A stretch of DNA of 31,947 nt, from positions 1-31,947 of IMG/VR virus record IMGVR_UViG_3300013010_000040. The stretch is one strand, 5' to 3'. Each line of letters starts with the position of its first letter. The first letter of the stretch is position 1. Shown piece by piece: positions 4,154 through 17,353 of this stretch. The notes under the pieces are model-generated. The model had not been told where the DNA came from, made no database searches, and worked only from the letters and a program-made list of their open reading frames with translations. The translations under genes were made by a program, and so were the position numbers. This DNA is from a virus.

Positions 4154-4183
4154 TTGTAGTATAAAATATGATACTTATATTTG
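4154..4183 (+). promoter_or_regulatory. Bacteroidota-type promoter (TTG, 19 bp, TATATTTG)
   Basis: TTG at 4154-4156 (within TTGTTGTTG), a 19-base spacer and TATATTTG at 4176-4183 match the Bacteroidota -33/-7 consensus. The spacer begins TAGTATAAAAT, the left half of the 20-bp palindrome seen in other early promoters here. It drives the structured leader and the small-gene block starting at 4371. Confidence 0.75.
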
Positions 4184-4189
4184 TTTTAT

Positions 4190-4370
4190 ACAAACGCAGA
4201 AAGAAAAGTTCTTTGAAAGGTATTTAAGTAAAGGAAGGCGGCACGTAAGTCTCAACATTCAAGATTGTGGTAGCGAAACTTTTAATAGCCACGTACACTA
4301 CTAGCGGAAACAGCAGATCTTCCTTTATTTTTAAGCCTTTTTTTAATTCAAACAAACAAACACAACGAAT
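4190..4370 (+). ncRNA. Long structured 5' leader or small RNA
   Basis: About 180 bases separate the promoter from the first good start. TAAAGGAAG (4229-4237) pairs perfectly with CTTCCTTTA (4319-4327), closing a domain of about 100 bases. Inside, GTGG (4267-4270) can pair with CCAC (4289-4292), and the near-repeats TAGCGAAAC and TAGCGGAAAC occur. T-rich runs follow the closing stem, as in an attenuator, then an A/C-rich stretch leads to ATG. It matches no RNA family I know; it could be a regulatory leader, an attenuator or a separate small RNA. Confidence 0.45.
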
Positions 4371-4709
4371 ATGCAATACAAGTACAAACAAGGAGACAAT
4401 GTCACATTCACAGACAAAGGTGGTGACAGGTACACAGGAACGATCACATCAAAAGGAGAAGAGCAAGGATTTGCGGTTTACGATCTCGACATCGGCCATT
4501 GGTGTTATGAGCATCAAATTAAAGAAGCTCAAGAGTTCATGAAGATTGATCACATTGTTTGCAAGCAGCTTACCAAGGGAAGTGAGGATGATTGCAAGGA
4601 AAGCGCCTACAATATCTGCCTTGATCAAAAGGTTGATGTGAAGCTTTTTCTGTTGAACGGAAAGACAATGATTTTTGACTACCAAATTCTAAGCGATGCG
4701 AGACTTTAA
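4371..4709 (+). CDS. Hypothetical protein with SH3/KOW-like N-terminus
   Basis: A 112-residue protein. The first 50 residues (KYKQGDNVTFTDKGG, then YTGTITSKG) look like a small beta barrel of the SH3, Tudor or KOW type that binds nucleic acid or protein; this is a judgement from pattern only. Four cysteines are spread over residues 45-85. The start is chosen because the upstream A/C-rich leader (CAAACAAACAAACACAACGA) is the style used by other early genes here; a longer frame from a GTG at 4267 is in another frame and runs through the leader structure. First gene of the small early block; its end overlaps the next gene by 14 bases. Confidence 0.85.
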   Translation: MQYKYKQGDNVTFTDKGGDRYTGTITSKGEEQGFAVYDLDIGHWCYEHQIKEAQEFMKIDHIVCKQLTKGSEDDCKESAYNICLDQKVDVKLFLLNGKTMIFDYQILSDARL

Positions 4710-5157
4710 GATCAGAAACTCAAACAAGACGCTGGTTCAAACAGCTAGGATTCAAACGGCTCTCTTCGAGTTTGGCTTCACGTGGTCTGATGGTAAGAAT
4801 TATGCTCAATATTTGTACGCTGTCGGCTACGCGGTTAGAAAAGGAGTGATTGCATATTTTGTTAGTGAACCTTATTTTGACGGATTGGAAGATGAAGAGA
4901 TCACTCTTCACCAGCTTGAATCTATGGCGGCTGAAAAGAAAAAGTGTGAGACAGCTCAAAAGATCTTAAGAGAGAAACCTGAAGTCGTCCCTCTCGATAG
5001 CATCGACTACGAAAAGAAGATTTGGACAGATGTTTATACTTCAATTGCTTCGCTAGAGTTTTTACCTTATAAGGAGCAGTCAAGAACTTGCTGTGGTTTG
5101 GCTGATCAAGCCTTAAAGGATTACAGAGAAAGATTTCCTAAAACCAAAAAGCGATGA
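4696..5157 (+). CDS. Hypothetical early protein (153 aa)
   Basis: A soluble, mixed alpha/beta protein with no recognised family. Residues 20-60 are aromatic-rich (FEFGFTWSDGKNYAQYLYAVGY), the middle is acidic and the C-terminal part is helical with a CC pair near residue 131. It overlaps the gene before by 14 bases and the gene after by an ATGA junction, so the block is one tightly coupled operon. Its place among small early genes suggests host takeover or counter-defence, but nothing in the sequence proves this. Confidence 0.83.
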   Translation: MRDFKIRNSNKTLVQTARIQTALFEFGFTWSDGKNYAQYLYAVGYAVRKGVIAYFVSEPYFDGLEDEEITLHQLESMAAEKKKCETAQKILREKPEVVPLDSIDYEKKIWTDVYTSIASLEFLPYKEQSRTCCGLADQALKDYRERFPKTKKR

Positions 5158-5360
5158 AGCGAATCACTATTCCAGCTTATGAGCTGACGAAGATCACGAG
5201 AGACGGATCTGAGAAATGCAAATTGATTTCCTACAACAGATGGGAAGGAACTTACACAGTCAAGTTCAAGAAAGGAGGCTTGATGAATTACTTTCCTCAA
5301 GAGCTTCGAGAAGTCTTCGGAGTAGAATTATCAGAAAAAGAACGGGATTTGTTGACTTAG
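5154..5360 (+). CDS. Hypothetical small protein (68 aa)
   Basis: Begins MKRITIPAYELTKI and contains a short beta-type core (KLISYNRWEGTYTVKFKKGG) followed by an acidic C-terminal helix. ATGA overlap with the gene upstream supports the start. The 3' end contains the TTG of the next promoter and the stop codon falls in the palindrome at 5358, so the gene end and the promoter share sequence. No family recognised. Confidence 0.8.
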   Translation: MKRITIPAYELTKITRDGSEKCKLISYNRWEGTYTVKFKKGGLMNYFPQELREVFGVELSEKERDLLT

Positions 5361-5383
5361 TAGAAAATTTTATACTATATTTA
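5352..5383 (+). promoter_or_regulatory. Promoter with 20-bp palindromic operator
   Basis: TTGTTG at 5349-5354 and TATATTTA at 5376-5383 flank TAGTAGAAAATTTTATACTA (5358-5377), the exact reverse complement of the palindrome in the promoters at 17463 and 30891. The last base of the -7 box is A rather than G and the spacer from the nearer TTG is 21, so it may be weaker. An A/C-rich leader follows to the ATG at 5403. Confidence 0.65.
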
Positions 5384-5402
5384 CATCATCAAACAAACGA
5401 AG

Positions 5403-5606
5403 ATGAAATTCACAAAGCAAACATCATACGATCCAGGTTACGGGTATCAAAGCGAATATGTCTTTGAAGAGTGGTCTATCTCAAAGTATTCAAGTCGAGA
5501 ATGGGATATATCAAGACGAGGGTGTTATGTTGTAACAGTAGGCAGCCTCACAATAGCAAAGAACTATGTTGAGGGTGTTATCAAAATGGAAAACAAACGA
5601 AGATGA
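5403..5606 (+). CDS. Hypothetical small protein (67 aa)
   Basis: A tyrosine- and serine-rich small protein (DPGYGYQSEYVFEEWSISKY) with a beta-type pattern and no known family. It is first after the promoter at 5352 and its leader CATCAAACAAACGAAG matches the early leader style. Its final codons (ENKRR) are encoded by a copy of that same leader, which serves the next gene through an ATGA overlap. Confidence 0.8.
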   Translation: MKFTKQTSYDPGYGYQSEYVFEEWSISKYSSREWDISRRGCYVVTVGSLTIAKNYVEGVIKMENKRR

Positions 5607-7381: not shown

Positions 7382-8525
7382 CAAGCTGTTCGACTTGAAC
7401 ATTCAGATTCCAGAAGGAATCGATTTGACTATCAATCAAGGTGGCACTTCGTCTGGAAAGACTTATTGCATCATGCAGGCTCTTTTTATAGTCGGCTACA
7501 TGAATCCTGGTTCTGTTATCACTGTCATAGGTCAAGACATCCCAAACTTAAAAGCTGGAGCAATTCGAGATGCTCAATCGATATTTGAGTCGAGTGAGTT
7601 CTGCCATCAGATCATATCTCACTACAATAAGAGCGATAGGATTTATCATTTCTTAAATGGATCAATTATTGAGTTCAAGTCTTACGAAAACGAGCAGGAT
7701 GCAAAGTCTGGGAAGCGTGATTTTAGTTTCTTTAATGAGGTGAATGGTATTGATTACGAGGTTTTCGAAGCAATCTATTCACGGACAAAAGTTCACACTT
7801 GGGTTGACTTTAACCCTTCGTCTACTTTCTGGCTCACGGATAGAAGGTTTGAATCTCGTGTAGGCGTTAGAACAATCAAGTCAACGTATGAACACAATCC
7901 GTTTCTTGATGAATCGCTTGTAAAAAAGATTCAAGCTTACGAGCCTACTCCAGAGAACATAGAGTCTGGAACAGCTAACGAATATCGATGGAAGGTTTAC
8001 GGCCTTGGTGAATACGCTCCACTAGAAGGTGCTATCTTTAACAGATGGAAGAGAGGAACTTTTGATGAGTCTCTGCCTTATGGCTTTGGATTGGACTGGG
8101 GTACACGAGACCCTTTTGCATTGATGAAAGTAGCAATCGACTCAAAGAAGCGAATCATTTACGTCAAGCAGGTATGCTATCAAGAAGGGCTTGCAATGTC
8201 TAATATCAAAAAGATAATGGCTCGAAATGTCACTGATGAGTTGGTTGTAGCTGATTCAGCAGATCTTAGAGGCCGTATTGATTTAATGGAAGACGGCTAC
8301 AATATTTTTCCAGCTCACAAGCAAGGAATTGGTGGCATTGTTTCTCGGATTCGTGCAATCATGGATTATCTTATCATCATTGAAGACTCCCCTGATGTAG
8401 AGCGTGAGTTGATTAATTACGTTTGGATTGATAAGCGTGGAGAAATACCGATTGACAAGTTCAATCATGCTCTCGATGCGATTGCTTATTATTTTACACA
8501 TATTCGTTTACAAGGAAATACTTAA
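7359..8525 (+). CDS. terL: Terminase large subunit
   Basis: 388 residues, rather short for the family. Walker A GGTSSGKT (28-35) and a Walker B-like FSFFNEVNG (near 130) form the packaging ATPase. The RNase H-like nuclease has three acidic residues: D246 (FGLDWGTRDPFAL), D299 (VVADSADLR) and D373 (FNHALDAIAYY). It pumps DNA into the prohead and cuts the concatemer. The order terS-terL-portal-protease-capsid is that of HK97-like phages. Confidence 0.95.
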   Translation: MPTPFLTSKLFDLNIQIPEGIDLTINQGGTSSGKTYCIMQALFIVGYMNPGSVITVIGQDIPNLKAGAIRDAQSIFESSEFCHQIISHYNKSDRIYHFLNGSIIEFKSYENEQDAKSGKRDFSFFNEVNGIDYEVFEAIYSRTKVHTWVDFNPSSTFWLTDRRFESRVGVRTIKSTYEHNPFLDESLVKKIQAYEPTPENIESGTANEYRWKVYGLGEYAPLEGAIFNRWKRGTFDESLPYGFGLDWGTRDPFALMKVAIDSKKRIIYVKQVCYQEGLAMSNIKKIMARNVTDELVVADSADLRGRIDLMEDGYNIFPAHKQGIGGIVSRIRAIMDYLIIIEDSPDVERELINYVWIDKRGEIPIDKFNHALDAIAYYFTHIRLQGNT

Positions 8526-8530
8526 TTTTG
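8523..8530 (+). promoter_or_regulatory. Late-type -7 box before portal gene
   Basis: TAATTTTG, then CAAC, then ATG at 8535. Overlaps the terL stop codon. No clear -33 element at the normal spacing. Confidence 0.45.
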
Positions 8531-8534
8531 CAAC

Positions 8535-9776
8535 ATGGCCTCATCATTTAGAAGCTTCCTTCGAGGACTTCGACACCCGTCTAAGCAGTTTCAATCATTT
8601 TTCTACGAGATCGGGAAGCCGTTTGAATTCAATCGAGTCTCGAACAGCGAAGCAATCAATCAAGGCTTTCTTTCAAATTCAGAATTTTTCTCGATAGTCG
8701 ATAAGATTGCAAAAGATTGTTCTGCTGTTCCTATTCAAGTTCTGCGAAACGATGAAGAAATTGAAGAAGGTGAATTGTATCAAGCTATTAACTTTCCAAA
8801 CTCTGAGCAGAGCAGACAACAACTTTGGTATGAGATTTTTGTCTACTTGCTTTCGACTGGAGATTCTTTTATCTGGAGAGAAAAAGAATCGCTTGGATTT
8901 GTTTCCACTTCGATGAAGACTCTTCCTTGCCAGAATGTGGAAGTTGTTAAAAGCAAAGAGGACTCAATCCTTGCTACAGTAGAGAAATACAAATTTGAAT
9001 ACGGACAAGAAAGAGTCGACATTCTTCCAGAGGAGATGATTCACTTGAGATACTTTGATCCAAGTTCAATAGGAAGAGCATTGAATGACGGCTTGTCTCC
9101 TATGCAAGCTGGAGCTGCTGTCTTGCTTGCTTCGAATAATCTTCAGATTGCAGAAGCTTCAATCTTCGAGAATCGAGGTACAAGCGCAATCATCTCAGCT
9201 GGAAAAGCTGAGATTCCTATGATGCCAAAAGACCAGAAGAATCTTGACAAAGGTTTGAATAATCGAATGGGAGGGGCGCACAGGACAAACAGTGTTATCA
9301 CAACCAGCGGAGATATTAAAGTACACCAGCTTGGAATGTCTTCTTCTGATATGAAGCTCCTTGAAAGCAAGATGGAACACCTTCGTCAGATTTGTAGATT
9401 GTTTGGAACTCCATCGATTCTTTACGGAGACCCGAAGGCAAGCACTTACAACAACATGAAAGAAGCTATGAAAGCACACTACTCTGGAGCTGTTCTCCCT
9501 AATGTTGAGCTTCTTTTGAGTACACTCAACAGAACTCTTGTTCGAGAAATCAATGAAAGAAGCACAGCAACTTTCAGCTTGAAGATTAACAAGAAAGAGA
9601 TTGAAGCTTTGAATCCATCTCAAGAAGAGATGCACGAACAAATCCGTCAAGACGTAGAAAAGAGAATTTTGACTCCGAATGAAGCTCGTGAAATGATTTA
9701 CAATCTTGAAGAAATTGAAGGAGGAGATCAGTTGAATCCATTAAAAACATCAAATTCTAATATCGATGGAAATTAA
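8535..9776 (+). CDS. HK97-type portal protein
   Basis: 413 residues, typical length for an HK97-like portal. Recognisable points are FLSNSEFFSIVDKIAKDCSA near the start, the loop STGDSFIWRE, and LFGTPSILYGDP with a conserved hydrophobic core (residues 285-300), followed by a helical C-terminus. Twelve copies form the ring through which DNA enters and leaves the head and on which the connector assembles. It lies between terminase and protease, overlapping the protease by 11 bases. Confidence 0.93.
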   Translation: MASSFRSFLRGLRHPSKQFQSFFYEIGKPFEFNRVSNSEAINQGFLSNSEFFSIVDKIAKDCSAVPIQVLRNDEEIEEGELYQAINFPNSEQSRQQLWYEIFVYLLSTGDSFIWREKESLGFVSTSMKTLPCQNVEVVKSKEDSILATVEKYKFEYGQERVDILPEEMIHLRYFDPSSIGRALNDGLSPMQAGAAVLLASNNLQIAEASIFENRGTSAIISAGKAEIPMMPKDQKNLDKGLNNRMGGAHRTNSVITTSGDIKVHQLGMSSSDMKLLESKMEHLRQICRLFGTPSILYGDPKASTYNNMKEAMKAHYSGAVLPNVELLLSTLNRTLVREINERSTATFSLKINKKEIEALNPSQEEMHEQIRQDVEKRILTPNEAREMIYNLEEIEGGDQLNPLKTSNSNIDGN

Positions 9777-10566
9777 GAAAACAGAAAACCAGTATAAAGA
9801 GAAGACTCTTTCAGCTCCTCTAGGTATGGAGTTGAAAGCGGAAGGCGATAGCCGTTCGGTGAAAGGATATTTCTCTGCCTTTAACGTGATTGATTCAGAT
9901 GGAGATATGATCATGCCTGGAGCTTTTTCGAAATCTATCAATGATCGTGGACCGCTAAGTTCTGGAAATCGAAAGATTGCTCATCTTGCCTTTCACGATA
10001 CCCGCAGACCAGTTGGAACGATTACAGAGCTGAAAGAAGATGAGAAAGGCTTGTACTTCGAATCAACTATCGGAACTCACTCTGAAGGCGAAAACGCTTG
10101 GAAAATGTATAAAGAAGGCGTAATTCGAGAGCATTCAATCGGGTTTCGCTATTTATGGGACAAAGCCGAATTTGTAGCGGTAGAAGAAGGTAAGATTGAG
10201 GCTTTGCTTACTGCTTATCCAGGTAGTGATGTTGAAGCAATCAAAACTCATGGAGGCTACTACAAGCTCAATGAGGTAAAGTTGTATGAAGGCTCTTTTG
10301 TAACCTTCGGAGCGAATCCAGAGACTCCAAACGAAACAAAATCTGAAGAGGAAATCAAGCAACTTTTTGAAGAGCTTGAAGAGAAATCAAACCTCTTTTT
10401 ATCAGATTTGAAAAAAATAACTAGTGCAGATCCTGTGAAAGAACAAGAATTTTTGCAACTTTTGCATAGTTATAAGTCACTCGCACTTCGAAAGCCGTCT
10501 ATAAAAGACACTCAAAAAGAGCAAGCCGACGAACCGAAATCAACATTTTTATCATTTATCAAATAA
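9766..10566 (+). CDS. Prohead maturation protease (HK97 family, U35-like)
   Basis: 266 residues. The protease domain (about 25-190) starts with VKGYFSAFNVIDSDGDMIMPGAF, and contains H77 in LAFHDTRRPVGTI and S124 in REHSIGFRYL, the expected catalytic histidine and serine of this serine protease family. It removes the scaffold-like N-terminus of the capsid protein and digests itself during head maturation. The C-terminal 70 residues are charged and helical and could help scaffolding. Confidence 0.92.
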   Translation: MEIKKTENQYKEKTLSAPLGMELKAEGDSRSVKGYFSAFNVIDSDGDMIMPGAFSKSINDRGPLSSGNRKIAHLAFHDTRRPVGTITELKEDEKGLYFESTIGTHSEGENAWKMYKEGVIREHSIGFRYLWDKAEFVAVEEGKIEALLTAYPGSDVEAIKTHGGYYKLNEVKLYEGSFVTFGANPETPNETKSEEEIKQLFEELEEKSNLFLSDLKKITSADPVKEQEFLQLLHSYKSLALRKPSIKDTQKEQADEPKSTFLSFIK

Positions 10567-10573
10567 TTTCAAA

Positions 10574-11848
10574 GTGAAAAAGAAATTCGAAACTTTCCTA
10601 ACGGAAAAAGGAATCACTTCTGAGGAGTTCGGTAAAAAGTCGGCTGACGAACAGTCTGAACTTTGGGCTGACTTCATCGAAGTGCAAATCAAAGCTCAAA
10701 CAGAGCTTGTAGAAAAGAAAGCCTCAAAAGAGGAGATCGCTGAACTCATCCGTGAAAAAGATGAAGCTCGTGCTGAAGAGATGAAAGTCATTAAAGCAGC
10801 AATGAAGGAGCAAGGTGAAGCGATGAAGTCAATGAGCGTGAAGCTTGTTTCTTCTAGCGCAAATCCAAAATCAGAAATTGAGGTAGCTCTCGAAGAGAAA
10901 GCTGATGCCTTCAAGAAAGAGATTGGAGAGAAAAAAGGCTCAGTTGAGTTTGAAATCAAAACCGATGTTACTGCTGCTTCAATTACCAACAGCACTGGAG
11001 CATTGCGCTTGGATTCAATTGGTCAACTTGCTCACTCGAAGCTTACCCTTCGTGACTTGTTTACCGTGATTCCAGTAGGAGCAGATTCAAATGGAGTAAT
11101 TCGTTACTCTGATTGGGATGCTGCTACTACTGCTAGAGCTGCAGCTATGGTGGCTGAAGGAGCTCTTTATACAGAATCAACAGCTGCATGGGAAGAGTTT
11201 ACTCTTGAGCTTAAGAAAATCGGTGATACTATTCCTTTAAGTGAGGAAACTATTTATGATCGTCCGCGTTTTGCTAGAGAAATAAACCAATTCTTGAGCG
11301 TAAACATCGCGATTGTAGAAGATAATCAACTTGCTATGGGTAGCGGTGGTGCTAATATGGATGGTTTATATCCAACAGCTCCAACTTACACAGCAGCAGC
11401 TTCTGGAATTGCAAGTCCATCAACTTACGATCTAATCGTGAAAATGCGTGAGGCTATCATGGGAACTTATGGTTCTAAGTATTCTCCGAACTTTGCAATG
11501 ATGAACATTTCAGAAATCACTTCAATGCAATTAACAAAGGATGCTAATGACAACTACGTCATGCCTCCTTTTGCAGATGAGCAAGGAAATGTAATCATGA
11601 ACATGGTTGTAATTGAAAATTCAAATATTGCCAACAATACTTGTGTTATCGGTGACAGTCGTTACGGAACTATCTACGAAGTAGAAGGAACAACCATCAT
11701 GACAGGTTATGTTGGAAATAACTTTGGTAAAGACTTAGTGACGATGAAAGGCCGCAAGCGCGAGGCTTTACTTCTTCGCAATGTTGACCGAACTGGTTTC
11801 CTTAAGTGTACTGACATCGCAGCTGCTAAGGTTACTTTAGCGACATAA
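10574..11848 (+). CDS. Major capsid protein (HK97 fold)
   Basis: 424 residues starting at GTG. Residues 1-125 are charged, helical and rich in Glu, Lys and Ala (LVEKKASKEEIAELIREKDE), like the HK97 delta domain that acts as internal scaffold and is cut off by the protease upstream. The remainder (from about 135, STGALRLDSIGQLAHSKLTL) fits the HK97 capsid fold, with IGDTIPLSEETIYDRP as a typical core stretch. Arg codons shift to CGT/CGC compared with neighbours, as expected of a highly expressed gene. The likely cut is near residues 125-135. Confidence 0.94.
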   Translation: MKKKFETFLTEKGITSEEFGKKSADEQSELWADFIEVQIKAQTELVEKKASKEEIAELIREKDEARAEEMKVIKAAMKEQGEAMKSMSVKLVSSSANPKSEIEVALEEKADAFKKEIGEKKGSVEFEIKTDVTAASITNSTGALRLDSIGQLAHSKLTLRDLFTVIPVGADSNGVIRYSDWDAATTARAAAMVAEGALYTESTAAWEEFTLELKKIGDTIPLSEETIYDRPRFAREINQFLSVNIAIVEDNQLAMGSGGANMDGLYPTAPTYTAAASGIASPSTYDLIVKMREAIMGTYGSKYSPNFAMMNISEITSMQLTKDANDNYVMPPFADEQGNVIMNMVVIENSNIANNTCVIGDSRYGTIYEVEGTTIMTGYVGNNFGKDLVTMKGRKREALLLRNVDRTGFLKCTDIAAAKVTLAT

Positions 11849-12117: not shown

Positions 12118-12630
12118 ATGGCGCAAATACTATCAACGACAGACTTCTTGAATGGAGATCTAAAATTAGCACAAGATCAAAACACGAAAGCTGCCATCGC
12201 TTCAATACTTTCTGCAGAGAAAGAGATTCACTATTTGAAGCAAATATTCGGCTCAACACTTGGACAAGCTTTGATTGATGACCTTGCTGGAGATCCGCTC
12301 GTGCCTGTTTCAGCTAAGTGGCTTGATATTTTCACTCCTTTCGACTTCGATAAGAATAGCCAGAATTGGTACTGCGAAGGAATTAAGAGAGCTTTGATGT
12401 ATCTCTTTTATCTTGAAGTCACAACTGGACAATCTGTTCGGAATTTCTCTTCAGGTAATCATGGAGTCAATCAATCAGCAGTCTCAGCTCAAGGTATCAA
12501 CAAGCTTGAAATCGTTTTATACAATCGAGGAGTTGAAGCGATTAGCTTGCTTCAGGCTTTTGTTTTGTCTGACGCTGCTACTTATCCAGATTTTAAAGGA
12601 ATAGAGTTCGAATATCAAAGTCCAATTTAG
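12118..12630 (+). CDS. Head-tail connector protein (putative, gp6-like)
   Basis: 170 residues, mainly helical (ILSAEKEIHYLKQIFGSTLG, WYCEGIKRALMYLFYLEV), placed just after the head genes and before a neck/tail protein. Size, helical nature and place match the connector (head completion) proteins that bind the portal ring in HK97-like phages. Sequence similarity itself is not obvious to me, so the call is from position and shape. Confidence 0.65.
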   Translation: MAQILSTTDFLNGDLKLAQDQNTKAAIASILSAEKEIHYLKQIFGSTLGQALIDDLAGDPLVPVSAKWLDIFTPFDFDKNSQNWYCEGIKRALMYLFYLEVTTGQSVRNFSSGNHGVNQSAVSAQGINKLEIVLYNRGVEAISLLQAFVLSDAATYPDFKGIEFEYQSPI

Positions 12631-12631
12631 T

Positions 12632-15025
12632 ATGCTACAAGTATCAACACTGCTTCGTGAGGTTATTGCTTCAATGTCAGTGACTTTGAAAATTGATTCA
12701 GTTGAAGCTTCTGGCTCAAACTGGAAAGTATATTGTTCCAACACTCAATATTTAAACACGCTCTCTGAGCTTGAAATTGGTAGCGTTCAATATGTTGTTG
12801 AAAGCTTTGTTCAAGATGAATATTTGATTCTTGAAGGAGCAGTCGAACCGACTCCAGGTATTTTCGCTCTACGGAATCCGACTTTCAAGCATGGCAAGTA
12901 TCAAGCTGTTCTGACAGAGCTTTCAGATCCGCAAGACTTGGACATCATGCCTTTGATTTGGATGCTTGAAAATCAGCAGCGCACACGGCCTTCAGAGCTT
13001 GATAGCAAAATCGAAAGCGAAGGTCAAGTCAGACTTTTCTTTGCAAATACAGATGACTGGTCGAGAGACACAGAACAGATGTATGAAGAAATCTTAAATC
13101 CGGTTCTGACTCTTGTCAATTTGTTTCTTGTAGAGCTTGAAGCGAATAAAAGAACTGGTGATTTTGGTGTGATCGAAACTACAAATCATGCGAAGTTGAC
13201 TATCGGAGGCGGAGACTTAGGAAGTACTGAAGCTCAAGGAATCTTCCAGAGAACGCTTTCAGGAATAGAGGTGACTATCAATCTTCCTATTATGGTTGAC
13301 TTTGATTGCTCTGATACTGCTTCAACTCGTGTATGTCCTCAAGTATCTATCTTAGACGCTAATGGTAATATAATTACAATGGTTGACGCAGGCTCTTCTT
13401 ACACTGTTAGCGGTGGAGGCGGTAGTGGCTTTGTTGAGAACTCAGATTCAAGCTATACTAATACAGTGGCAAGTGGTGCTACTTTAGTGCTGCCTGATAT
13501 TACAGTTACAGATTCAGATGGTTCAACTTCTTCTGTGCCTAGTGTCCAAAACGTACTTTGTACGCCTTCAGCAGATGCTACAGTAGAAAATAGCGACAGT
13601 AGTTACACTAATACTGTGGCAAGTGGTGGAACGCTTACGCTTCCTGACATCACAGTTACAGACAGCGATGGGAGCACGTTCACTCAGGCTTCTGTTGTGA
13701 ATGTAGTTTGTAGTTTAGCGGCTGATGGTACGGTGAATGTAAATAGTGTATTTTTTGACAATGTAGCTTCAGGCGGAACCTTAAACATCGAGGTAAGACA
13801 ATCGAGTGGAAGCACATTAATAGGTTCAAAACAAGGTGCACATTTTAGAATACCTGACAGCGTCATTACTTTAGACAATACGGACGGGTCTACATTATCT
13901 ACTACAAACGTCTTAGCAACTGATGCATCGACTATTACCGCTCCTGATGCTACTGCTGTAATTAAAAACACTTTAAATGCAGTTCTTAGGTCAGAGTTAG
14001 TTCCTAGCAATGTGAGCGAGGATATTATCATTGGCGATGCAACCATTAACATTAACCAGAGCGATGGAACTTTAATTGCAAGCGCAACTGTAACAGCAGA
14101 GGGTTCAGGAGTTTATAATGTCGCTGATTCAACTGTCAATGTGGTTAATACTCTTGGCACAGTTTTATCAAGTAACTCAGTAAAAGCCACAGTTACTGAC
14201 ACAGTTCTAGCACCTGATGCAAATGTTGAAAACTCAGACAACAGTTACACTAACACAGTTGAAAGTGCTGGCACGCTTACGCTTTCTGATATTACGGTGA
14301 CATATCCAAGTGGGGCAACCGAGGCATTCCCCGCAGCGATAAACATCACAGCAAGTGCCGATGTAAGCGATGAGATATTTTTAGAAGCGGATTCGGTTGT
14401 AGAAAGTGGGGGTGCGGTAAGTGTAATGACTGACCAAGGCGGAAAGAATAACAACGCGAACCAACATGTAGGCTCAACACAGCCAAGCCTTGTCGCTTCG
14501 GATGCGTCATACAATAATCAACCTGTGGTCGTTTTTGCGGCTGACCAAATGTATTTTGATAGACCATTCGCAGCACACCTGAAAGATGGGTTTTCGTTTT
14601 TCTTTGTTGGGCGGGTTGATACAGTGGCGAGATTCGATTGGCTTGGCAGTAAATACGGGAACACCGTTTGCTCGCTTGGTGGCTTTGAGGACTTAGGATA
14701 CACGAGGATTCGAACAAAAGAACTAAGCGCATCGACTAACACCACTCAGAACACAGCGACAAATTTAGATACAGACGGTATTTGGACTCTAATAGGTACG
14801 GGCGCGTCTACGAACTTATACTTAAATGGAGTTTTGGTAATTAGCGCAAGCCAACACCAAGAAAATGGTTCTTTCGGTTGGTTGGGGGCGTTGTCAACTC
14901 AATTAAGAAGTAGGGGGCGATTTGGTACAATGACTTTTAGAAACGGCTACGACCTGACACAGATAAACGCAAGAGGGTCAGCCTTCGGGACAAAGTACGG
15001 ATTCACTTGGACAACAATAGTATGA
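12632..15025 (+). CDS. Neck/tail-completion-like protein fused to beta repeats and LamG-like domain
   Basis: 797 residues in three parts. Residues 1-235 look like a stand-alone neck or tail-terminator protein of Bacteroidota phages (VTLKIDSVEASGSNWKVYCS, VRLFFANTDDWSRDTEQMYE). A glycine hinge (SGGGGSG, about 260) follows. Residues 265-580 hold beta-sandwich-like repeats with the motif VENSDSSYTNTVASG and LPDITVTDSDGST, clear twice in tandem and again near 530-560. Residues 580-797 resemble a concanavalin/LamG sugar-binding domain (FSFFFVGRVDTVARF, TNLYLNGVLVISAS, GWLGALS). It is probably displayed on the neck or tail and sticks to host or surrounding glycans. The C-terminal domain differs in codon use from the rest, suggesting domain swapping. 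Confidence 0.75.
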   Translation: MLQVSTLLREVIASMSVTLKIDSVEASGSNWKVYCSNTQYLNTLSELEIGSVQYVVESFVQDEYLILEGAVEPTPGIFALRNPTFKHGKYQAVLTELSDPQDLDIMPLIWMLENQQRTRPSELDSKIESEGQVRLFFANTDDWSRDTEQMYEEILNPVLTLVNLFLVELEANKRTGDFGVIETTNHAKLTIGGGDLGSTEAQGIFQRTLSGIEVTINLPIMVDFDCSDTASTRVCPQVSILDANGNIITMVDAGSSYTVSGGGGSGFVENSDSSYTNTVASGATLVLPDITVTDSDGSTSSVPSVQNVLCTPSADATVENSDSSYTNTVASGGTLTLPDITVTDSDGSTFTQASVVNVVCSLAADGTVNVNSVFFDNVASGGTLNIEVRQSSGSTLIGSKQGAHFRIPDSVITLDNTDGSTLSTTNVLATDASTITAPDATAVIKNTLNAVLRSELVPSNVSEDIIIGDATININQSDGTLIASATVTAEGSGVYNVADSTVNVVNTLGTVLSSNSVKATVTDTVLAPDANVENSDNSYTNTVESAGTLTLSDITVTYPSGATEAFPAAINITASADVSDEIFLEADSVVESGGAVSVMTDQGGKNNNANQHVGSTQPSLVASDASYNNQPVVVFAADQMYFDRPFAAHLKDGFSFFFVGRVDTVARFDWLGSKYGNTVCSLGGFEDLGYTRIRTKELSASTNTTQNTATNLDTDGIWTLIGTGASTNLYLNGVLVISASQHQENGSFGWLGALSTQLRSRGRFGTMTFRNGYDLTQINARGSAFGTKYGFTWTTIV
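13430..13690 (+). repeat. Tandem coding repeat in the neck adhesin
   Basis: Two units of about 150 bases beginning near 13433 and 13583 encode nearly the same stretch (VENSDSSYTNTVASG, LPDITVTDSDGST). A third, more distant copy begins near 14225. The copies differ mainly at third codon positions in the shared core, so they are selected at protein level. Confidence 0.85.
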
Positions 15026-15252
15026 TAGTATTCGAGACATTAGACTTTCAAAAGGACATCGAAGACATCGACGCTTTCCTATTCGGAAGAATAAACCAGA
15101 CTACTTGGCAGACAGAGCCCATAGAATTTGAGGGCAAAACTTACATCAAGTATAAGTCAACACTTGACGAATGGAAAGCAGTCAACACAACTGAAATAGA
15201 ATTGCCACCAATAGAAATAGAAGATCTCACGAGTGATGAAGAAAATACTTAA
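15022..15252 (+). CDS. Hypothetical small acidic protein (76 aa)
   Basis: MIVFETLDFQKDIEDIDAFL, then IEFEGKTYIKYKSTLDEW and a very acidic C-terminus (PPIEIEDLTSDEENT). The start is the ATG overlapping the adhesin stop (ATGA at 15022-15025); a TTG five codons earlier lies within the adhesin gene. Its pairing with the adhesin suggests a folding helper or partner for it, but the family is unknown. Confidence 0.75.
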   Translation: MIVFETLDFQKDIEDIDAFLFGRINQTTWQTEPIEFEGKTYIKYKSTLDEWKAVNTTEIELPPIEIEDLTSDEENT

Positions 15253-15279: not shown

Positions 15280-16209
15280 ATGAAAACTTGTCTTTGCGAT
15301 TTGACCTTCTTGAACACAGGACGGCCATCTTGTATGCCGATGCAAGATGCGGCTCGAAAATTAATCCTTGTTCCATTAGCTCAAGCAGATGGCACATTGA
15401 ATCGAATCCTTTTATCTGATACGCTCGACAAAGCTTATGTCGATGCAGCTATCAACAATGCGGATCCTTATCAGCGTTGGTACCCAGTCGGAAATCTTTT
15501 GAATGTCGAAGACGTTCGTGGAGATGATGTCGTTGAGACATTTGAAGACGGAACTTCTGCAAAGGTTCAAGACGCGATTGGAACATTCGCTGGAATCATC
15601 ATCAACCAGACTCCAGACTACCTTCGCAAGATCATCTCTTGGGGTTGTACTACTTTCGGAGCTTACGTTGTTGACAAGCAAGGAAACTTGATTGGTGACT
15701 CTGTTACCGATCCTCTTTACATGGCTCCTCTTCCAATCAATTCAGCAACTTGGAGCCCTAAGTACATCAAAACAACCGACACGACTGTTCCAAAAGTTCA
15801 ATTGAACTTCGAGTGGAGACAGGACTTCACCGATGATAAACTCGGAATGGTTCTTGCTTCTGAGTTCTCAGGTATTGATTTGCTTGACATCGCTGGTTTG
15901 GTTGACTTGTACGGAGCTGTTTCAAACGAAGCGACTACAGGATTCACAATGACAATCACAACCGACTACGGATCTGCAAAGACTCGTGCAAAGGTGAGCG
16001 GATTAAATGCTGCTGACTTCGATTTGAATGAGCTTACGCCTACTCCAGGCGCAGAGCCTTTCACAGTTGTAGAGTCTTCTGATGGAGTTTACGACTTCAC
16101 AATCACAACTCCAGCTTCTTCAACAGAGACATTTGCTCTAGGAATTGATGCTGCCACTTTAGGATATGATGACACATATCTTGTTAGCGAGACAATTACA
16201 ATTCCTTAA
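15280..16209 (+). CDS. Major tail (tube) protein, putative
   Basis: 309 residues. The first 200 (CLCDLTFLNTGRPSCMPMQD through FEWRQDFTDDKLGMVLASEF) have the size and beta-rich pattern of a tail tube subunit; the last 95 (from about FTMTITTDYGSAKTRAKVSG) look like an added Ig-like domain, a common decoration on tail tube proteins. Its place between neck genes and tape measure, a private promoter and a following terminator fit a highly expressed structural protein. Call is by position and architecture. Confidence 0.7.
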   Translation: MKTCLCDLTFLNTGRPSCMPMQDAARKLILVPLAQADGTLNRILLSDTLDKAYVDAAINNADPYQRWYPVGNLLNVEDVRGDDVVETFEDGTSAKVQDAIGTFAGIIINQTPDYLRKIISWGCTTFGAYVVDKQGNLIGDSVTDPLYMAPLPINSATWSPKYIKTTDTTVPKVQLNFEWRQDFTDDKLGMVLASEFSGIDLLDIAGLVDLYGAVSNEATTGFTMTITTDYGSAKTRAKVSGLNAADFDLNELTPTPGAEPFTVVESSDGVYDFTITTPASSTETFALGIDAATLGYDDTYLVSETITIP

Positions 16210-16442: not shown

Positions 16443-16646
16443 CTACTCTGCTGATCTTAGAAAGTTTGGCGATAGGTTGTTGATTTCAGCCTCTAGCCTT
16501 CCGATTCTTTTATTCGCCTCCTTCTTCTCCTTTTCCGTAGAGTCTATTCCTAGATTTGCGGAAATTACCGACATCTCATGTAGTTTCTTATCTATGAGCT
16601 TTCTTACTTTCTCGTTTGTGTAATACAATGCAACTCCTTCAATCAT
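16443..16646 (-). CDS. Hypothetical small coiled-coil protein (67 aa)
   Basis: Minus-strand protein MIEGVALYYTNEKVRKLIDK, then a charged helical region with STEKEKKEANKRIGRLEAEI, likely a coiled coil. Its start overlaps the stop of the phosphoesterase gene (ATGA), so the two are co-translated. Unknown function, perhaps a partner of the enzyme. Confidence 0.72.
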   Translation of the reverse strand: MIEGVALYYTNEKVRKLIDKKLHEMSVISANLGIDSTEKEKKEANKRIGRLEAEINNLSPNFLRSAE

Positions 16647-17353
16647 AAGTCCATAAGTAAGTTAATGGGCGTTCTGCCCTGATTAAGAACAACAACGCAT
16701 CCAATAGCAGGCTTTTTGCCTCTCTTAGCGTATGCCATAGCGTAGGAATTGTGATCTATTCCACAACCTACCTGAGTGCCGAAGACCTTAAACTTCTGGC
16801 CGACAACCCATTCAGTATAAGCCTGAGTGTGTAGGTGTCCTTGAACCGTGGACATCATATCTGCCTTGCACTTGGTTCTAGCTGTTCCTGCTTCACCATG
16901 AATGTATTGCACATCGTCAATCACGAGCCTGTCTACAAAATCCCATTGATCAACCTCCAATACATCTTTATATTCTCTAATCCATTTTGTAGGAACTGCG
17001 GAGGTCTGAGCTTTGCGCATTATGATCCGGTCATGGTTTCCGATAATAACGGTAGCAACCGGAAAGTCATCGCGCCACCTTGCTATCTTTTTTATTGCAA
17101 ATTCTAGTTCGTCAGAGCCTCCGAGTCCGTTTGCGTCTGTTTCGTGATATGAGCTAAAGTGATTGTCAATTACATCGCCAATAAATACAATTTTATTGCA
17201 GTTGAATTTTTCCTTTTGCTTTATGCAGAAATCTAGATAGCCATCCAGGCAGAAAGGTTCGTGCAGGTCTCCTATTACTAGGACTCTGTTGGACTCATCT
17301 TTTAGGCTTCCCACAAGCCAGTTGAGTCCTTTGCTTAATCTCGGTCTACTCAT
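16643..17353 (-). CDS. Calcineurin-like metallophosphoesterase
   Basis: 236 residues with the full set of metal-binding motifs: GDLH (28-31), GDVID (59-63), GNHD (105-108), a histidine in YIHGE near 150 and GHLHT near 173. This family cleaves phosphodiesters or phosphomonoesters using two metal ions; phage members are varied in substrate (nucleic acids, cyclic nucleotides or protein phosphates). It sits on the minus strand in the middle of tail genes, with the terminator behind it, so it is an added accessory gene (moron). Breaking a host cyclic-nucleotide defence signal is one possible role but cannot be read from the sequence. Confidence 0.88.
   Translation of the reverse strand: MSRPRLSKGLNWLVGSLKDESNRVLVIGDLHEPFCLDGYLDFCIKQKEKFNCNKIVFIGDVIDNHFSSYHETDANGLGGSDELEFAIKKIARWRDDFPVATVIIGNHDRIIMRKAQTSAVPTKWIREYKDVLEVDQWDFVDRLVIDDVQYIHGEAGTARTKCKADMMSTVQGHLHTQAYTEWVVGQKFKVFGTQVGCGIDHNSYAMAYAKRGKKPAIGCVVVLNQGRTPINLLMDL

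Follow-up and report, generated by a model that had tools for sequence, protein, structure and literature searches.

A Predicted Neck Fibre with a Tail-Terminator Base and an Exchangeable Repeat Shaft in an Uncultured Tailed Phage

Introduction

What does a protein of 797 amino acids do when its gene lies where a phage encodes the junction of head and tail? The ORF in question occupies positions 12632-15025 on the plus strand (ATG to TGA) of a virus record of 31947 bases, which was analysed as a whole and is referred to here as the window. An initial annotation divided the product into an N-terminal domain of its own, a hinge rich in Gly, a series of repeats, and a domain at the C-terminus, and all four parts are present in the ORF. 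The analysis below indicates that the protein is probably an adhesive fibre mounted on the neck, with a tail terminator as its base and a predicted binding domain as its tip. The exchange of anchor, shaft, and tip in the manner of cassettes is considered more important than the earlier reading of the single protein.

Results

The Fibre Gene and Its Neighbours

The gene order around the ORF is siphophage-like and consists of the large terminase, portal, protease, capsid, connector, fibre gene, and tail genes. A tape-measure-like gene, followed by tail-tip genes and lysis, lies 3' of the tail genes. The upstream neighbour (12118..12630, plus strand) is a probable head-tail connector, based on its position and on same-slot genes elsewhere that match DUF6712. 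The downstream neighbour (15280..16209, plus strand) is a probable major tail protein by position and size only, and a search for a family match to its product returned none. The fibre gene is located in the slot between the head-tail connector and the tail tube genes, the tube gene being placed by position only.

The source of the fibre gene is an uncultured tailed phage. No match to the full-length protein was found among cultured phages, where the only relative is a stand-alone one of another anchor type in Nonlabens phages P12024S/L. Neither the N-terminal domain nor the shaft was confirmed in the 84,980 bacterial and archaeal genomes scanned.

Two other features of the window were observed. 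A metallophosphoesterase gene (phrog_221) and a 67-aa ORF lie inside the tail block at 16443-17353 on the minus strand, opposite to the surrounding genes, an arrangement like that of a moron insertion. The major capsid protein (10574-11848) is only 69% identical to that of the close relative L002 (2967-4217 in that locus), while the main genes on either side of the capsid gene are 95-100% identical. This divergence amid near-identical flanks suggests that the capsid gene was recently exchanged.

The N-Terminal Anchor

The virion anchor is assigned to residues 1-225 (12632..13306, plus strand) as a predicted tail-terminator domain of the Tc1 or lambda gpU type. Residues 1-235 have no family match in Pfam, PHROGs, or NCBIfam, and a profile search of the N-terminus against PDB sequences returned only chance matches. 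An AF2 model of the domain, built from an alignment of seven relatives, has a mean pLDDT of 65 and is of moderate confidence. Foldseek alone gave a weak list with no convincing top match, which nonetheless includes terminator or neck chains of Chi, T5, SaPI1, A-1(L), and lambda.

After realignment of the Foldseek candidates with VIA-align 2, all of rows 1-36 are chains whose structure entries describe a terminator, cap, or neck of a phage or tail-like particle. Chains from entries titled only 'neck' were counted as terminators because they superpose on the same fold. The best row is Bxb1 (Z 11.5, 2.6 A over 123 residues), followed by NF5 (Z 10.8), lambda gpU (Z 10.4), and then SaPI1, T5, Mu, T4 gp15, and others. 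The first unrelated proteins appear at Z 7.0. The list contains no BppU row, although absence from the list is no proof. The modelled fold and these top 36 rows back the earlier suggestion that the N-terminus is a neck or tail-terminator protein.

A predicted beta-barrel is inserted after the first terminator helix at residues ~16-81 (12677..12874, plus strand). This segment of ~65 residues is the best-predicted part of the model, with pLDDT values mostly of 75-92. It is apparently skipped in the terminator alignments, which align 123 residues over the model range 1-225. The barrel aside, the predicted elements of the domain agree with the terminator fold. Some rows match only residues ~16-81 (ATP synthase barrels and the T1 and FCWL1 chains, Z ~6.5-7), and no functional assignment was drawn from them. 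The barrel might take the place of a separate head-closure (stopper) protein, given that a stopper gene is not evident between the connector and tail genes.

On the basis of the model, the N-terminus is concluded to be a tail terminator. Terminators are located at the top of the tail tube, and the remainder of the protein should therefore project from the neck. The placement of the fibre at the neck would thus follow from the terminator fold together with the gene order.

The Hinge and Repeat Shaft

A linker at residues 226-267 (13307..13432, plus strand) joins the anchor to the shaft and ends in a GGGGSGF hinge at residues 261-267. The Gly hinge described initially occurs in L010 as well as the window group and is absent from the L009, L011, and L013 lineages.

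The shaft, defined here as residues 268-579, is made of 50-aa and 30-aa repeats, all on the plus strand. It begins with two 50-aa VENSD repeats (residues 268-367, 13433..13732), continues with one unit of ~40 aa and four 30-aa units (residues 368-531, 13733..14224), and closes with a last repeat of the 50-aa type (residues 532-579, 14225..14368) just before the tip. A search with the unit HMM (hmmsearch) located the 50-aa unit at 268-317, 318-367, and 532-579. The 30-aa periodicity at 408-532 (periods 30 and 60) is higher than in all 500 shuffles. Across the relatives, the 50-aa unit has from one to five copies, and the main difference between L002 and the window gene is one extra 50-aa unit.

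The repeats were previously called Ig-like. Ig domains are roughly 80-100 aa in length, and the units of the shaft are too short to be classical Ig domains. Because the units are 50 and 30 aa long and lack a match to an Ig family, with BIG and PKD families also searched and none found, the Ig-like label is withdrawn. Structure prediction gave a terminator fold for the N-domain and a pLDDT of only 32 for residues 313-797, which cover part of the shaft and the tip.

The Tip

The tip (residues 580-797, 14369..15022, plus strand) has no direct match in Pfam, PHROG, or NCBIfam, LamG included, and its profile search against PDB sequences returned only chance matches, antibodies being among those for the N-terminus and tip taken together. 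A profile of three tips aligned by hhalign with a family of phage tail-end proteins over 187 columns (Prob 98.2, E 4.7e-14). The HMM of this family scores 43-44 bits on the three known tips and at most 10 bits on 900 shuffled tips. The tip is homologous to the tail-end family over most of its length.

Members of the family include Gordonia phage Lucky10 gp27, whose gene lies directly after the tail genes, and Aphanizomenon phage CL131 gp026 (phrog_10356). Both proteins match PF09206 (alpha-L-arabinofuranosidase B, catalytic) above the cut-off over ~75-80 residues, and Lucky10 gp27 weakly matches the arabinofuranosidase PDB chains 1wd3 and 6sxt. The alpha-L-arabinofuranosidase B domain has a concanavalin-A-type beta-sandwich fold. 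By this homology, the tip is a probable concanavalin-A-like beta-sandwich binding domain. The LamG-like tip proposed at the outset was right in kind, as the profile homology leads to tail-end proteins related to a beta-sandwich glycosidase, but the tip itself does not match Pfam LamG.

Other tips occur in related proteins. L070, which has another anchor in the same gene slot, carries a LamG_3 tip (1.3e-9), and L085, likewise with another anchor, carries an Lcl_C tip (35.9 bits against a cut-off of 34.9). L010 and L015 have different anchors, yet one further tip type is common to both. The tips of the window and L005 are just 36% identical, whereas the connector (93%), terminator domain (97%), shaft (91%), tail protein (93%), and capsid (95%) of the two are closely similar. 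Replacement of the tip between close relatives is what would be expected if the tip were a receptor-recognition domain.

The extension might instead serve as passive decoration, stabilising the neck or keeping particles apart, with tip variation reflecting neutral drift. This would agree with the freely varying number of 50-aa units (one to five) and with L074, L077, and L084, which stop after one or two units and have no tip. The replacement of the tip between near-identical genomes, the homology over most of the tip, and the reuse of the tip by other phages in their tail-end genes argue for recognition, and passive decoration is considered unlikely.

It is quite unlikely that the tip is an enzyme, a neck-mounted arabinofuranosidase-like glycan hydrolase that trims surface polysaccharide and does not merely bind it. 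The family does include phage proteins that exceed the PF09206 cut-off and match 1wd3 and 6sxt, but the match of these relatives to the enzyme (GH54) covers only ~75 residues near the start of the 315-residue catalytic profile and leaves most of the catalytic domain unmatched. The tip is also only ~200 aa long, and the other tips, LamG_3 or Lcl_C, are usually binding modules. A binding tip is the reading retained here.

The Companion ORF

An ORF of 76 aa (15022..15252, plus strand) overlaps the stop codon of the fibre gene (ATGA). Homologues of this ORF, at 62-86%, are found behind every tip of the window type (window, L005, and L009 groups). None was found behind other tip types in the loci searched. 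This co-occurrence indicates that the 76-aa ORF is probably a helper for the window tip type. A tip-specific chaperone, akin to the Tfa-type proteins of other phages, would be a reasonable guess.

Sharing of the Shaft between Divergent Phages

The shaft region compared between phages comprises residues 315-575. Between the window and L009, L010, L011, and L013, this region is 84-90% identical at the protein level and 59-81% identical at fourfold-degenerate sites. The flanks tested in the same comparisons (terminator domain, connector, tail protein, and capsid) are 25-52% identical as proteins and 12-49% identical at fourfold-degenerate sites, which is near saturation. In L015, the shaft is found on a different anchor (90% protein, 80% fourfold), and in L019 and L051 it has almost no anchor and is found at another genome position (86% protein, 66% fourfold).

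Descent of the shaft in the vertical line under purifying selection, with no horizontal exchange, would account for protein identities of 84-91% in all close copies among the phages compared. It would not account for fourfold sites of 59-81% in the shaft (window against L009, L010, L011, L013, L015, and L019) beside 12-49% in the neighbouring genes tested, nor for the differences in anchor and genome position of L015 and L019, and it is very unlikely. Because the fourfold sites of the shaft are alike while the neighbouring genes are saturated, recent horizontal exchange is the only simple reading. The synonymous-site identity thus identifies the shaft DNA as an exchangeable cassette, whose role in adaptation would be a further step.

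A wider search identified 61 loci with shaft units. Elsewhere the shaft is either free-standing or combined with other anchors and tips, and shaft and tip together also occur in genes that have no anchor. The pre-unit sequence, defined here as everything N-terminal to the first unit, was sorted by single-linkage clustering into a 29-member group of other anchors, a 16-member group of the window type, and several small groups. This clustering also yields free-standing genes with short N-termini. No sequence link was found by hhalign between A2, the window-type terminator, and A9, the other anchor type. Counting the A9-type anchors as terminators rests only on their slot and on the neighbouring connector-like gene, which has DUF6712 in several cases.

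Other arrangements of the units were also observed. L092 has three genes with repeat units of the shaft type (4172-5446, 8514-9590, and 10054-11214). One carries an anchor domain and follows a DUF6712 connector, and the other two are free-standing fibres that share a C-terminal part, with a small overlapping ORF behind each of them. Many related phages (L074, L077, L078, L084, and L086) have short tipless versions, in which the anchor is followed by a single repeat-like unit or a few of them and the sequence closes with ETFNIVWQ or a similar motif.

A broader proposal is that the shaft segment of ~0.9 kb is a recombination platform that unrelated phages have in common. By homologous exchange inside this segment, phages would trade tips, and the fibre would shift from a free-standing gene to the tail terminator or back, which would turn this core tail protein into a second, neck-mounted adsorption device. 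The chances for and against this proposal are judged to be about even.

Integrity of the Fusion

Seven contigs (L003, L012, L014, L017, L018, L022, and L023) end inside the shaft repeats. Such breaks are expected of sequence that is common to several genomes, and short-read assemblies probably contain too few fibre tips of this kind. The whole protein has intact relatives in independent contigs at 93%, 55%, and 54% identity, and these contigs keep the flanking gene order. Although the breaks indicate that assemblers struggle in the shaft, the recurrence of the intact architecture in contigs of different samples with the same neighbours shows that the fusion of anchor, shaft, and tip is real, and an in silico joining of a fibre gene to a terminator gene is extremely improbable.

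Discussion

The neck-mounted fibre may be pictured as follows. Residues 1-225, modelled as a terminator fold, would assemble on top of the tail tube where the head joins, probably as a hexamer like other terminators. The repeat shaft would project outward from this ring. The predicted beta-sandwich tip, which is homologous to tail-end proteins, would most likely bind a surface glycan belonging to the host or to its environment, and the product of the overlapping 76-aa ORF would probably assist tips of the window type. Polysaccharide or mucus, the targets named in the initial annotation, would be plausible ligands. Horizontal sharing of the shaft would allow anchor, shaft length, and tip to be recombined among divergent phages, so that the tip may change while the virion structure stays constant, possibly to adaptive effect. 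A ring of six subunits is not easily reconciled with a trimeric fibre, and six monomers or two trimers would be the arrangements to consider.

Neck fibres with sugar-binding tips are familiar from dairy phages, where, in the literature consulted, they are mounted on a dedicated collar protein. The mount here appears to be the tail terminator, a core assembly part, and the fibre should therefore be present on all particles whose tails terminate correctly. The synonymous-site evidence provides a clear natural case of an adhesin cassette that passes between phages whose capsid proteins differ greatly. What neck fibres are for in environmental phages can be tested with expressed tips and does not require phage culture.

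The literature searched, mainly open-access, contained no terminator-mounted fibre. The window protein resembles the tail terminators of lambda (gpU), T5 (p142), Bxb1, and SaPI1 in the predicted fold of residues 1-225 and in the location of its gene ahead of the tail genes. It differs from them in the inserted beta-barrel and in ~570 extra residues of shaft and tip. According to a structural study of the T5 terminator, larger terminators with additional domains exist, the example given being sheath interaction, and the passages on these terminators describe no adhesins (PMC11784142).

Homology links most of the tip to phage tail-end proteins that carry an ArfB/LamG-like domain (phrog_10356; Lucky10 gp27 and CL131 gp026). 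Those proteins are encoded at the end of the tail block, whereas the window domain is fused to a terminator. The Legionella collagen-like protein Lcl, which recognises sulphated glycosaminoglycans (PMC11162425), likewise has a terminal binding domain on a repeat shaft, and its domain (PF07603, Lcl_C) is present in the anchored relative L085, although the window tip is of another type. The Ig-like modular adhesins of gut phages, many of them in phages of Bacteroidota and built of BACON, PKD, or Ig domains (PMC13370021), and T4 Hoc are also modular surface adhesins with possible mucus binding. The window repeats are of another kind, and no link to a terminator is reported for those adhesins.

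The nearest functional analogue is the neck passage structure of lactococcal 936 and P335 phages. Its N-terminus is constant and is followed by a shaft, and its carbohydrate-binding tips can be exchanged. A GFP fusion of one such tip bound host cells (PMC6669499), and domain shuffling has been documented for the structure (PMC10684548). Its base is predicted to be a BppU-like beta-sandwich forming a collar of its own, carries a coiled-coil shaft, and is dispensable in TP901-1 (PMC6669499). The window fibre shares with it an exchangeable tip on a constant base and, by prediction, a neck location and carbohydrate binding, and differs from it in having a base with a predicted tail-terminator fold and a shaft of short repeats.
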